32,498 nt of DNA from Candidatus Microgenomates bacterium. GTDB lineage: Bacteria > Patescibacteriota > Microgenomatia > Levybacterales > UBA12049. The DNA lies in contig JANWKV010000060.1 of the NCBI GenBank assembly GCA_025451195.1, positions 1 to 32,498 on the forward strand. The letters run 5' to 3'. Made by a program: the position numbers and the translations under genes. Below the pieces are notes generated by a model. It worked only from the letters and a program-made list of their open reading frames with translations, searched no databases and was not told where the DNA came from. Shown here one piece after another: positions 6,450 to 30,447 of the stretch (within the stretch, counting starts at the first letter, position 1; each line of letters begins with the position of its first letter).

Positions 6450-6920
6450 ATGGATGCTATTTTTACAACCAGCAACGAAGAAACAAAAGAGTTTGCCGGA
6501 AGTTTTGCGAAAAAACTTAAAGCAGGTGACATTTTATGTCTATATGGAAATTTGGGAGCAGGTAAAACAACTTTTGTTCAGGGTTTGGTAAAAGGGTTGG
6601 GAGTTACAAAAAGAATAATTTCCCCGACATTCGTGATAGTTAGGTCGTACAAATTGAATCTCAAATCTCAAATCTCAAATCTCAAATCTCAAAATGCTGC
6701 AATCAATATGTTCTATCATGTAGACTTATACCGACTTCAAAGCGAAAAGGATATGGCATCAACAGGGTTATCAGATATAATGCAAGACAAGAATGCAATT
6801 ATCGCAATCGAATGGCCGGAAAAAATGGGCTTATTAATTCCGAAAAAAAGATGGGAAATAAAATTTGAAAATATGGGAGAAGATAAAAGAAAGATATCAT
6901 TTGAAAATTATGGACAGTAA
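6450..6920 (+). CDS. tsaE: tRNA N6-threonylcarbamoyladenosine ATPase TsaE
   Basis: LYGNLGAGKTTFVQGLVKGLG (Walker A), SPTFVIVRSY, YHVDLYRL, IEWPEK; interrupted by NLKSQISNLKSQN repeat peptide. Confidence 0.92.
   Translation: MDAIFTTSNEETKEFAGSFAKKLKAGDILCLYGNLGAGKTTFVQGLVKGLGVTKRIISPTFVIVRSYKLNLKSQISNLKSQNAAINMFYHVDLYRLQSEKDMASTGLSDIMQDKNAIIAIEWPEKMGLLIPKKRWEIKFENMGEDKRKISFENYGQ
6657..6691. repeat. Five perfect tandem copies of heptamer AATCTCA inside tsaE
   Basis: Direct reading of 6657-6691. Confidence 0.97.
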
Positions 6921-16560: not shown

Positions 16561-17688
16561 ATGAAAATTGTTATTGTCCCGGCAACATACAACGAAAAAG
16601 ATAATATAGAAAAATTTATTACAGTTTTGGAAAAAGAAGTATTCCCCAAAATTAAAAACCACAATATGCATATCCTGGTTGCGGATGACAATTCTCCCGA
16701 CGGAACGGGCGAAATTGTTAAATCCCTTATGAAAAAATATAAAAATTTGGGGATTAATCAGGGGGAGAAAAAAGGATTGGGAGCAGCATATATTAGAACA
16801 ATGGGAGAGGCAATAGGCAAAATGAATGCAGACGCGGTAATAAGCGTGGATGCGGATTTCCAGCACGATTTACATAAAATTCCGGATTTTATTAAAAAAC
16901 TTGATGAGGGCTACGATATGGTAATCGGCACGCGTTATAGCGGAGGCGGTTCGATACCGGAAAACTGGCCTTTGCAAAGAAAGCTTTTCTCAATTGTTGC
17001 AAATCTTTTTGTCAGAACTGTTTTTACGAAGTTTAGTATTCATGATTGGACAGGTGGATATAGGGCAATTTCTAGAAAAGTTTTTATTAAAGAACGGCCG
17101 GAAATGACAGGTTTTAACGGCTATATTTTTCAGATCGCGTTCTTAAATAAAGCCGTAAGAGACGGATTCACTGTTGCGGAAGTACCATTCCATTTTTCGG
17201 ACCGGACACTCGGAAGTTCAAAAATTGCTCCCCTAAATTATATTATTGATGTTGTAACATTTGTGCTAACAACGAGGTTTAAAGAATTAATTTTTGGTAA
17301 ATTTGGTAAGTTTTTAGTTGTAGGAGGATTCGGGTTTGTTGTAAATGCAGTTATCTTAAAAATACTTGCTGAAAAATACCATTTTGACCCAACGATAGCA
17401 AATCTTGTAGGAGCGGCAATTGCAATTTTTTCAAATTTTAATTTTAATAACCACTGGACATTTAAGAGTGAAAAAGTTACCAGTATTTCTCAATATTTTG
17501 TGAAGCTTTTTCATTTTTATCTAACCTCCGTTTTTGGAGTGATTGTTATTCAAACAGGAACAATTTTACTTGGGGATATACTTTTTGGCAAGAAGGGGTA
17601 TTTCTTATACTTTATTATTGGAACAGGTATTCTTTTGGTGTGGAATTTCTTTATATACAACAGGTTTATTTGGAAAAAGAAAAAGTAA
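16561..17688 (+). CDS. GT2 polyprenol-phosphate glycosyltransferase fused to GtrA-like membrane domain
   Basis: VPATYNEKDNIEKFI, VADDNSPDGTGEI, SVDADFQHDLHKIPDFI, DWTGGYRAISRKVF; C-terminal GtrA-like KFLVVGGFGFVVNAVILKIL...FNNHWTFK. Confidence 0.92.
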   Translation: MKIVIVPATYNEKDNIEKFITVLEKEVFPKIKNHNMHILVADDNSPDGTGEIVKSLMKKYKNLGINQGEKKGLGAAYIRTMGEAIGKMNADAVISVDADFQHDLHKIPDFIKKLDEGYDMVIGTRYSGGGSIPENWPLQRKLFSIVANLFVRTVFTKFSIHDWTGGYRAISRKVFIKERPEMTGFNGYIFQIAFLNKAVRDGFTVAEVPFHFSDRTLGSSKIAPLNYIIDVVTFVLTTRFKELIFGKFGKFLVVGGFGFVVNAVILKILAEKYHFDPTIANLVGAAIAIFSNFNFNNHWTFKSEKVTSISQYFVKLFHFYLTSVFGVIVIQTGTILLGDILFGKKGYFLYFIIGTGILLVWNFFIYNRFIWKKKK

Positions 17689-17703
17689 ACTAAATAAGTG
17701 TTT

Positions 17704-17848
17704 AAGCTCAGGAACAATTTTTTCTTGTTCCGCAGCTCGCAAATGTCAATTTTATTCGAGCATAAATAATTTCCTAAAAGTACTCAAGATAATATCCAAT
17801 TCATGTTAGCTCGAAATGCGAACTGCGAAAAAATTATTCCATTCGCTT
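17704..17848. other. Long imperfect inverted repeat / candidate structured RNA element
   Basis: Arms: AAGC(17704-17707)/GCTT(17845-17848); GGAACAATTTTTTC(17711-17724)/GAAAAAATTATTCC(17827-17840), 13 of 14; GCAGCTCGCA(17732-17741)/TGCGAACTGC(17817-17826), 9 of 10; TTCGAGC(17755-17761)/GCTCGAA(17809-17815), 7 of 7. The ORF-track start at 17803 lies inside it. Confidence 0.75.
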
Positions 17849-17856
17849 TTGATAAC

Positions 17857-19422
17857 ATGAAAAAAAAATTTGATTTTATTATCATTCTAGGAATTATTTG
17901 TCTTGGTGCTTTTCTTAGGCTTTACCGTATTCAGGACTACATGACTTTTTTGGGTGATGAGGGAAGGGACGTGTTGGTTGTTTACAATATTTTGCACGGG
18001 CATTTTACTTTGCTTGGACCAACCGCAAGCGTTGGCGGGTTTTTTCTGGGCCCAATTTATTATTATTTTATGGCGCCGTTTTTGTGGATTTTTAATTACA
18101 ATCCCGTTGGCCCCGCAGTAATGATCGCACTTTTTGGAGTTCTCACGATCTGGTTTGTTTATAAAATTGGGAGCGAATTTTTTAATAAGACAACAGGAAT
18201 AATTGCCGCTCTGTTTTATACAATTTCACCCTTAGTAATTTCATATTCGCACTCTTCATGGAATCCAAATTTAATGCCTATTTTTACTATCTTCACTCTT
18301 TACACATTATATAATGGAGTAAAAAATTCAGACAAAAAACTTTTCGTTCTGTCAGGAATATTTTTGGGAATTCTTTTACAGCTTCATTATCTTGCAACAT
18401 TCGTTGGAGTAACTGTATTTATTTACGTACTTTTTACGGATTTTGTTCTGTCAAAAGTATATAAAACAAAAAAAATACTCGAATATATTTTATCTTCTGT
18501 AAGTAAATTATTTCTTGTATTTGTAGGTTTTATTGTCGGCCTGGCACCTTATTTAGCATTTGAGATACGACATGGATTTCCGAATACAATGAGTATTTTT
18601 TCTTTTATATTTAACTCTCCCGATGTGAAAACCGGGGGTAATATGTGGTATATAATTCAAAATGTATTTTTTAGACTTTTTGGGCGGCTGGTAACATTTT
18701 TTCCTCCCCCCGAACAACTTTCCTCCAGACCACATGAGCTTATTTCTATCTGGTATTTCTTAACTTTATTTTTAGGAATTGCTTCATGCGTATATCTTAT
18801 TTACGTATTTTATAAAAAATTCCGCAGTAAAGAGGATTTCTTAAAAATATCTCTGATTCTTATTTGGTTTTTTATAGGCATTTTCCTTTTTGGATTTTAT
18901 AAAAAATCTATTTATGATTATTACTTTGAATTTTTGTTTCCATTACCATTTTTGCTTGTTGGTTATTTTGTTTCATTTTTGTGGTCAAAAAAAATATATT
19001 GGAAAATTATCGCGGTTTGCACTATTTTTATCATTTCCTTCATTAATTTACAGGGAGTTTATTTCAGGTACCCCGCAAACAAACAATTGGCTCAGGCCGA
19101 AGAAATTTCAAAATTTGTGGTGCAAAAAACACAAAATAAACCGTACAACTTTGCCTTAATTACCAGTGGAAATTCAGATCAGGAATACAGATATTTCTTT
19201 ACCATTTGGGGCAAACCGCCTGTAGTTATTCTAAATTCGCAGGAAGATCCTCAAAGGAAATCCGTAACAGACCAACTGTTGATTGTTTGTGAGGGACCTT
19301 GCGCGCCCTTGGGTAATTCTTTATGGGAAGTTGCAGGATTTGGCAGGGCGGAAATTGAAGACCGGTGGAACGTGTCTGTTGTAAGTGTTTATAAACTGGT
19401 ACACTATAAAGGTCCTAATTAA
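17857..19422 (+). CDS. Multi-TM glycosyltransferase, PMT/ArnT-like (GT-C fold)
   Basis: LGAFLRLYRIQDYMTFLGDEGRDVLV (DE-containing first loop), many TMs. ATG 17857 (MKKKFDFIIILGI) preferred because the upstream 18 codons lie in the inverted repeat. Confidence 0.87.
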   Translation: MKKKFDFIIILGIICLGAFLRLYRIQDYMTFLGDEGRDVLVVYNILHGHFTLLGPTASVGGFFLGPIYYYFMAPFLWIFNYNPVGPAVMIALFGVLTIWFVYKIGSEFFNKTTGIIAALFYTISPLVISYSHSSWNPNLMPIFTIFTLYTLYNGVKNSDKKLFVLSGIFLGILLQLHYLATFVGVTVFIYVLFTDFVLSKVYKTKKILEYILSSVSKLFLVFVGFIVGLAPYLAFEIRHGFPNTMSIFSFIFNSPDVKTGGNMWYIIQNVFFRLFGRLVTFFPPPEQLSSRPHELISIWYFLTLFLGIASCVYLIYVFYKKFRSKEDFLKISLILIWFFIGIFLFGFYKKSIYDYYFEFLFPLPFLLVGYFVSFLWSKKIYWKIIAVCTIFIISFINLQGVYFRYPANKQLAQAEEISKFVVQKTQNKPYNFALITSGNSDQEYRYFFTIWGKPPVVILNSQEDPQRKSVTDQLLIVCEGPCAPLGNSLWEVAGFGRAEIEDRWNVSVVSVYKLVHYKGPN

Positions 19423-28752: not shown

Positions 28753-30447
28753 ATGTTGAAACAGAGAAAATGGAATGTTATTAATAAATTAAAAGTTAAA
28801 AGTGAAAAGTTAAAAGTTCAGGAATTAATCAATATTATTTTAGAAAACAGGGGAATAAAAACAAAAAAAGAAATTGAACAATTTTTAAGCCCTTCTTTGG
28901 AAATGGTAAGTGTTGATTCTGTTGGCATAAATAAAAATCAATTAAAAAAATCTCTTGACCGGATTAAAAAAGCAATCAATAGAAAAGAAAAGATTGTTGT
29001 ATTTGGGGATTATGACGTTGACGGAATAACAGGTACTGCAATTTTGTGGGAAACGCTCTACGCGTTGGGAGCAGATGTAAGTCCGTATATTCCCCACCGC
29101 GTCGAGGAAGGCTATGGACTTTCTGTTAAGGGTGTAGAGAATGTCAAATATCAAATGTCAAATATAAAATTGATAATTACCGTAGACAATGGGATTGTTG
29201 CCAACGATGCCATTGATTTTGCAAACAAAAATAATATCGATGTAATAATTACAGACCACCATACGATTGGAGAAAAACTTCCTGAGGCGTTTTCAATTGT
29301 CCATACAACTTCCCTTTGCGGGGCGGGAGTTGCGTGGATTTTATCGCAAAATCTCAAATCCCAAATATCAAATGTCAAAAAGAAAAAAGACGAGGATGAA
29401 CATCTTGACCTTGTTGCTTTAGCTACGGTTGCAGACCTTGTTCCTTTAACCGGTAACAATAGAATTCTCTTAAAAACCGGTTTGGAGTATTTACAGAAAA
29501 CAACACGCATTGGTTTGAAAGAATTATTTAAAGAAGCACAAATTGACCCGCAAAAAATCGGAGTTTATGAAATTGGACATATTATTGCACCGCGTCTTAA
29601 CGCAATGGGAAGACTGGAAAGCGCAATGGATTCTTTAAGGCTTTTATGTACAAAAGATAAAAACCGCGCAAAAATGCTGGCAGAAAAATTGTCAAAAACA
29701 AACAGGGAACGCCAACTCTTAACTCAGGCAGCAACCTTGCACGCAATGGAAAGTGTTAAGAATCAAAAAAATTTAAAAAATCTTTTATTTATTGTTAATG
29801 AATCTTATGAAGAAGGAATTATTGGTTTGGTTGCGGGGAAACTTGTCGAGCAATTTTACAGACCTTCAATTGTTGTGAGCAGGGGAGAAAAAGTAAGTAA
29901 GGCTTCTGCAAGATCTGTAAGTGGGTTTAATATTATTGAGTTTATAAGAGAAGCCCAGGATTTATTAATTAACGCAGGCGGGCATCCAATGGCAGCAGGG
30001 TTTACAATCGAGACCGAAAAGATTGAAAAATTACAAGAAGCTTTGGAAAAACTTGCAGAGGTAAAAGTTAGCAATGATCACTTAACTCCTATTCTTAAAA
30101 TTGATTGCGAATTGGACTTAGAAAGTATCTCTAAAAATCTCTATGACAGCCTGAAAAAACTTTCCCCTTTTGGAATGGGAAACCCGGAGCCAACATTTGT
30201 AAGTAAAAACGTAAATGTTTCGGATATCCGTTTTATCGGGAGGGAAAAAAATCATATTAAATTCAGGTTTTTAACAGACCAAAAAAAAACAATAGAAGCA
30301 ATAGCATTTAGCATGGCGGATAAGGCAAGAGAAATAAAAATTGAAAGTTTAATAAATATTGTTTATACGATAGACGAAAACGAGTGGAATGGGGAAACAA
30401 ATCTTCAACTTAAGATAAAAGATTTCCTCCCGTTAGCAAGCGGATAG
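28753..30447 (+). CDS. recJ: Single-stranded-DNA-specific exonuclease RecJ
   Basis: VVFGDYDVDGITGTAIL, ITVDNGI, VIITDHHTIGEKLPEA, ATVADLVPL, GHIIAPRLNAMGRLESA, NAGGHPMAAGFTIE, FGMGNPEPTF. Confidence 0.94.
   Translation: MLKQRKWNVINKLKVKSEKLKVQELINIILENRGIKTKKEIEQFLSPSLEMVSVDSVGINKNQLKKSLDRIKKAINRKEKIVVFGDYDVDGITGTAILWETLYALGADVSPYIPHRVEEGYGLSVKGVENVKYQMSNIKLIITVDNGIVANDAIDFANKNNIDVIITDHHTIGEKLPEAFSIVHTTSLCGAGVAWILSQNLKSQISNVKKKKDEDEHLDLVALATVADLVPLTGNNRILLKTGLEYLQKTTRIGLKELFKEAQIDPQKIGVYEIGHIIAPRLNAMGRLESAMDSLRLLCTKDKNRAKMLAEKLSKTNRERQLLTQAATLHAMESVKNQKNLKNLLFIVNESYEEGIIGLVAGKLVEQFYRPSIVVSRGEKVSKASARSVSGFNIIEFIREAQDLLINAGGHPMAAGFTIETEKIEKLQEALEKLAEVKVSNDHLTPILKIDCELDLESISKNLYDSLKKLSPFGMGNPEPTFVSKNVNVSDIRFIGREKNHIKFRFLTDQKKTIEAIAFSMADKAREIKIESLINIVYTIDENEWNGETNLQLKIKDFLPLASG
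28791..28818. repeat. Four tandem heptamers (AAAAGTT/AAAAGTG) at the recJ 5' end
   Basis: AAAAGTT AAAAGTG AAAAGTT AAAAGTT, encoding KLKVKSEKLKV. Confidence 0.92.
29145..29165. repeat. Three degenerate heptamers CAAATAT/CAAATGT in recJ
   Basis: CAAATAT CAAATGT CAAATAT, encoding NVKYQMSNIK. Confidence 0.8.
29349..29376. repeat. Four degenerate heptamers AAATNNC in recJ
   Basis: AAATCTC AAATCCC AAATATC AAATGTC, encoding NLKSQISNVK. Confidence 0.85.

Follow-up and report, generated by a model that had tools for sequence, protein, structure and literature searches.

The window analysed here, a 32,498-nt stretch of DNA from a Candidatus Microgenomates bacterium, carries a long imperfect inverted repeat directly in front of a glycosyltransferase (GT) gene, and raises the question of what such a hairpin does at this place. 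A first-pass annotation had offered two readings, that is, a leader with mutually exclusive folds of the attenuator or riboswitch type, and a small palindromic element preserved as a fossil. The paired blocks, the 47-nt loop, the outer AAGC/GCTT and a local alternative pairing that it described were all confirmed at 17702-17850, far beyond chance, and an inverted-repeat search returned this hairpin as the sole inverted repeat within 500 bp. Hereafter, the plus strand of the window is designated A and the minus strand B. Read on the B strand, the whole element (17702-17850; assigned by covariance-model match and fold as a degenerate intergenic copy of an approximately 150-nt subtype) starts from a foot helix P0, in which AAGC (17845-17848) pairs with GCTT (17704-17707). 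The following helix P1 has GGAATAATTTTTTC (17827-17840), comprising a copy-variable outer part and an A/T-rich core (AAAATTTT in the family), on its 5' side and GAAAAAATTGTTCC (17711-17724) on its 3' side, forming a 14-nt block with one mismatch. The core helix is a 10-nt block, also with one mismatch, between CGCAGTTCGC (17818-17827; CGC-GTTCGCA in the family) and GCGAGCTGCG (17731-17740), the latter followed by the conserved GGAACAAG, as defined by copy comparison and fold. The apical helix pairs TTCGAGC (17809-17815), from which the subtype motif CGAGCTAACATG follows on, with GCTCGAA (17755-17761), and encloses the loop (17762-17808).

The two strands differ in their folding. The A strand of the hairpin gave -29.0 kcal/mol (z = -3.0), compared with -45.9 kcal/mol (z = -5.0) for the B strand as RNA, where 0/200 shuffles were as good, and -23.1 kcal/mol (z -3.6) for the B strand as DNA. 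One reason for the better structure of the B strand is that the C.A mismatch in the 14-nt block of the A strand turns into a G-U pair when B is read. The strongest fold of the hairpin is thus antisense to the GT gene.

The genes flanking the hairpin are both on the plus strand, a family 2 glycosyltransferase fused to GtrA (16561-17688; Pfam PF00535 and PF04138) upstream and a PMT_2 glycosyltransferase (17857-19422; Pfam PF13231, matched with the open reading frame (ORF) starting at 17803) downstream. The most homologue-like start of the latter is the ATG at 17857, and the repeat therefore ends 8 nt before the gene; it had rightly been placed near the start codon, at a distance of about 10 nt that is corrected here. 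A second in-frame ATG at 17803 lies inside the element and, as a putative start, would add MLARNANCEKIIPFAFDN; the 3' part of the element and its flank (17803-17856, plus strand) are open and in frame with the GT gene, in what is the usual coding frame of the element. Orthologues of the PMT_2 glycosyltransferase occur in 69/73 genomes of the Levybacteria family, and the upstream gene adjoins the GT gene in all 11 orthologous junctions compared, with gaps ranging from -55 to +27 nt and most commonly of -4 (ATGA overlap). The gap in the window is 168 nt, 149 nt of which are the element, showing that a near-zero gene junction has grown at this site by the length of the element. As a separate observation, runs of AAATCTC-type units (AAATCTCAAATCTCAAATC) are present in the window at 6649-6708 and 29139-29380, and such runs also surface as MKSQISNLKSQ-like N-terminal extensions in two GT orthologues (L243 and L245); these units are possibly another dispersed coding repeat.

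Copies of the hairpin were sought in the own genome of the window (1.17 Mb, 62 contigs). BLASTN with the window region revealed a second place matching both arms on contig C20 and one arm on C5, and the C5 copy used as a query matched C57, C9 and C20. Common to these copies is a core of AAAATTTTC / GTTCGCA ... TGCGGAACAAG / GAAAATTTT, with outer stems on either side whose sequence changes from copy to copy while their complementarity is kept. A first covariance model (R1), built from five copies including that of the window, yielded more copies at home and in relatives, and matched the window copy with 91.7 bits, a score that reflects a training set containing this copy. A second model (R2) was built from 18 copies with the window copy left out, and still matched it on the minus strand over model positions 1-121 (29.3 bits, E 3e-4); this score is weak, and the membership of the window copy also rests on the direct copy-to-copy matches and the common core. 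With R2, nine copies were found in the own genome, the window copy among them, and 135 matches in 32/73 genomes of the Levybacteria family. Because some of the matches represent the same element on opposite strands, the latter correspond to about 130 elements (1-22 per genome), most of them 88-163 nt long, which are dispersed and patchy among the Levybacteria genomes.

Beyond the family, the element is nearly absent. A sample across the phylum gave R2 matches in 3/287 genomes, two of which are members of the Levybacteria family, and a DNA pattern scan of about 85,000 species returned 32 stretches, 29 of which came from Levybacteria, other Patescibacteria or unnamed bins. On inspection, no element was seen in the remaining three (Bacteroidetes, Selenomonadaceae and Alphaproteobacteria); the Selenomonadaceae stretch scored just 21.2 bits and apparently lies within an ordinary reading frame. 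A phage or virus origin was considered and rejected, as the pattern was not found in viral contigs and gave no match in phage records. In Rfam, no family reached the gathering cut-off; permissive searches gave sub-threshold microRNA and lncRNA matches, the best of which scored 31.9 bits against a cut-off of 139.7 (a plant microRNA precursor family). The repeat family is essentially confined to Levybacteria within the Patescibacteria.

The fold of the family was examined in two alignments. In that of 18 sequences, which was not fitted to the structure, 85.9% of cells were paired in a hand-drawn structure, and the covariation score was 0.315, compared with 0.141 after shuffling (0/500); slid controls did not exceed 0.124. 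In that of 76 model-aligned matches, which was fitted to the structure, 30 of the 37 pairs had changed on both sides (361 cells of this kind vs 122 shuffled), with a covariation score of 0.359 and slid controls of at most 0.095. The outer part of P1 also covaries between copies. These results show a conserved hairpin consisting of a foot (GC-GGGGA / GA-CCTC-A-GC), a variable and complementary P1, a stem of AAAATTTTC/GAAAATTTT and a core of GTTCGCA/TGCGGAACAAG. An internal loop of 1x2 (A/GA) is conserved in the foot, which also has a bulged A and has shrunk in the window copy to GC-GAAT / TGA-GC; in the core of many copies, GA stands opposite GA. Moreover, the cells are strongly polarised between the strands, with 215 G.T vs 61 A.C, and 63 elements vs 4 favour B; B is therefore the strand whose folding mattered, whether as RNA or in the form of single-stranded DNA. 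Covariation and further copies in the genome, whose absence the first-pass annotation had named as refuting, were both decisively found, and its second reading, a relic of a small palindromic element, is right. The mutually exclusive folding that it noticed is not a conserved switch, because the local hairpin GGAACAA/TTGTTCC (17711-17717 with 17725-17731, plus strand) recurs in just 3/74 copies; it is a by-product of the variable P1 sequence, without conservation. Miniature feet lacking the long hairpin, such as GGGGAGCCCCGCCCTGGCGGGGCGACCTCAGC and GGGGAGCTCACAAAATTTTCGTGGGCGACCTCAGC, were also observed (L119:4808-4853, L231, L233, L235-L238); these consist of a foot and a short stem (30-40 nt), recur in several genomes, and are either REP-like units or internal deletions.

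Many copies sit in frame within conserved genes. Among the 74 copies inspected, 27 lie inside ORFs of at least 278 codons (two of these, in G015 C11 and G022 C16, appear to be one insertion), and all 27 are on strand A, in one shared frame and free of stop codons; in the other 47 copies, the usual frame is open in 16 (Fisher p 2.5e-9 vs 27/27). The encoded peptide of about 40 residues, [x]GAEVAxENFxVHNA(about 10)ANAHSENFxSSPR, gave no match in Pfam. The host genes, assigned by Pfam and in part also by reading the flanking sequence, include topA (three genomes), dprA (four), dnaX (two), prs (two), leuS (two), ychF, map, infB, recJ, radA, trpC (in the own genome) and those for a 5'-3' exonuclease, a pseudouridine synthase, a transketolase, a WecG-like protein, a Mur ligase and GT4 enzymes. 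Neither RNA splicing nor translational bypass has to be invoked for the copies inside genes, since frame and freedom from stops are kept in 27/27. The insertion peptide in ychF and its flanks are identical in G015 and G022, which are assigned to different genera (L132, L134); recent transfer, a shared contig or binning overlap may each account for this identity.

The host proteins have homologues without the insert. About 45 other DprA proteins of the Levybacteria family lack it and mostly align as two blocks around it, and the solved structures of YchF, Map and Prs are likewise without insert; in Prs, it adds 39 residues between the adjacent residues 160/161 of 1dkr. In four genera, the element sits in the DprA loop FVLYVKG/IAVVGTR at slightly shifted residue positions; this loop is either a hot spot of insertion or very permissive. 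The same loop holds an insert of different sequence in G079 (DprA loci L201-L230). Among a set of paralogues in G077, two genes have the element near their starts, a third retains a remnant of the 3' foot alone, and the fourth is preceded by a miniature version.

The placement of the intergenic copies is also oriented. Between two genes of the same direction, the A strand agrees with the direction of the genes in 32 copies and disagrees in 4, all of the latter in G077, and behind an A-sense upstream gene the copy starts at a median of 6 nt past the stop codon. On contigs with several inspected copies, placement is on a single strand in 13/13, including G077 C29 and C56 (L119, L124, L299, L300), where the copies stay on one strand although the genes flip, hinting at a bias of the replication strand rather than of transcription. 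Contigs C1 and C3 of G032 are both skewed (GC skew) and gene-dense on the A strand, and replication and transcription bias are inseparable there because both strands coincide. The genes between the copies are ordinary syntenic housekeeping genes (the ribosomal operon and the dnaX-recR region).

Several explanations of the hairpin were weighed against these results. A cis-regulatory leader of the PMT-like GT gene, switching between the long and the local hairpin, would be in keeping with the site just before the gene, the strong fold and the possible alternative pairing; it is nevertheless very improbable, because the antisense strand folds better, the orthologous GT junctions leave no room for a leader, and the copies flank or interrupt unrelated genes, to which the rarity of the alternative pairing and the failure to reach any Rfam cut-off are added. 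Somewhat less remote, and still improbable, is a structured noncoding RNA gene or a hairpin for mRNA processing or decay, either expressed from the B strand or lying within operons, and selected for a cellular function. The strong covariation, the conserved internal loops (A/GA, and GA/GA in many copies), the G-U polarity, the 32 vs 4 intergenic copies in A sense and their closeness to the upstream stop would all suit such an RNA, whereas a number of copies from 0 to 22 and an occurrence in 32/73 genomes are a misfit for an essential one; furthermore, many copies reside in essential ORFs, no gene context is conserved, and the copies of the own genome are partly degenerate.

Among mobile elements, one of the REP/RAYT or IS200/IS605 type, with a Y1 transposase acting on single-stranded DNA, comes closest and may be rated as rather unlikely. 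Such a system would account for a hairpin favoured on one strand, for the mini versions made of a foot and a short stem (e.g. GGGGAGCCCCGCCCTGGCGGGGCGACCTCAGC), and for the single-strand copies on 13/13 multi-copy contigs even with gene flips (G077 C29, C56); a RAYT-like Y1 transposase gene is indeed located between copies in G077 (L119:1751-2398). However, PF01797 (Y1_Tnp) is found in 20/32 positive vs 21/41 negative genomes, that is, with no association, and neither the own genome nor G032, with its 13 copies, contains it; the elements are also 3-5 times the typical REP length, and no GTAG-type tag was seen in them. Same-strand arrays at a spacing of 1-2 kb, the folded-strand bias and a variable sequence with conserved ends also recall the attC site of integrons, with its consensus RYYYAAC...GTTRRRY. 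By eye, no such RYYYAAC/GTTRRRY boxes are present at the element ends, and the GTT-containing core has the order opposite to that of the attC boxes; with housekeeping genes rather than cassettes between the copies, and with ORFs interrupted, an attC-like recombination site has very little probability. Least probable of all is a local perfect palindrome arising by template switching without mobile origin: this process is able to create and restore palindromes (PMC6649704), but the blocks GTTCGCA, GGAACAAG and AAAATTTT are common to copies dispersed over many genera, and mismatches and bulges that correction ought to remove have been conserved.

Collectively, the window hairpin is very probably an intergenic copy, now decaying, of a palindromic repeat of about 85-160 bp that is non-autonomous and dispersed. 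As we envisage it, the element moves, or has moved, in trans with the aid of some enzyme, whose substrate is probably the folded B strand, either as single-stranded DNA or as RNA. It would persist at harmless sites, either in the space from a stop codon to the following ribosome-binding region or in protein surface loops, because one of its six frames is stop-free. After insertion between genes, frame and foot would presumably be lost and the copy would decay, as in the window. Among the copies examined, no transposition event was found and no exact target duplication was defined, and no mobilising enzyme was found; the loci compared included no clean empty site, and one deletion remnant (O036). 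Part of the compensatory change could have been produced by template switching between the arms instead of selection (PMC6649704), and the intergenic copies could have acquired an effect on mRNA.

The closest known parallels are the Rickettsia palindromic elements (RPE; Ogata et al. 2000, 2002), long stem-loops of 105-146 bp (PMC2229807; also PMC10969869) that occupy 19 Rickettsia genes in frame, one host enzyme having remained active (PMC2229807), and the similar elements of Wolbachia (WPE; PMC4224334). Like these, the Levybacteria repeat is a dispersed long stem-loop palindrome, intergenic as well as in frame in conserved genes, which adds a conserved peptide and has no mobilising enzyme assigned to it; three features of RPE/WPE-type elements, namely a palindrome of about 100-150 bp, dispersal between and within genes, and homologues without the insert, are found in it. 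Whereas RPE and WPE belong to Alphaproteobacteria, the present repeat belongs to Patescibacteria; it has conserved foot and core motifs and a distinct peptide, and it further differs in its very strong pairwise covariation, its copy-variable P1 and the same orientation and frame of 27/27 coding copies. By analogy, the Levybacteria repeat appears to work like RPE, although it occurs in a different phylum and its conserved fold appears unrelated to theirs. ERIC/RU-1, RUP and Correia/NEMIS are likewise imperfect, dispersed, non-autonomous palindromes of about 100-200 bp, and some of these MITE-like palindromes carry ORFs (PMC2229807). In contrast to them, neither a conserved TA-ended terminal inverted repeat nor a target duplication was defined for the Levybacteria repeat; as regards a classical MITE, its foot is conserved, but its outer, terminal stem varies while staying complementary. 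With REP/RAYT, it shares the short palindromes (mini versions of 30-40 nt in Levybacteria) and a conserved foot, but it exceeds them in length, often codes for peptide and shows no association with Y1_Tnp. The coding palindromes of Nematomorpha mitochondria also form hairpins within protein genes; those are perfect local inverted repeats, in contrast to the dispersed Levybacteria family with its common sequence (PMC6649704).

The open-licence literature gave no description of such a repeat in Levybacteria, Microgenomates or Patescibacteria. In the literature searched, in-frame palindromic elements in housekeeping proteins are known from Rickettsia and Wolbachia, and have been called a unique feature of Rickettsia. 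The Levybacteria family is a new, lineage-restricted palindromic repeat that is capable of coding. A bolder version, that it is a coding palindromic transposable element outside Rickettsiales, in the streamlined Patescibacteria, whose mover recognises the folded B strand, is possible but doubtful; if it is true, the uniform strand on each contig despite gene flips would mean that insertion is coupled to replication, not to transcription. For annotators who encounter such leaders, the hairpin family can now be recognised as not regulatory, and odd insertions of 40 residues in Levybacteria proteins are explained by the repeat. About 130 copies with a defined fold and frame, together with congeneric genomes, provide material for identifying the mobilising machinery. 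The same phenomenon as in the Rickettsiales is now seen in an unrelated genome-reduced phylum, in core genes such as topA, dprA, dnaX, infB and leuS, which points to a repeated origin of such elements in reduced genomes, where they add peptides to proteins.
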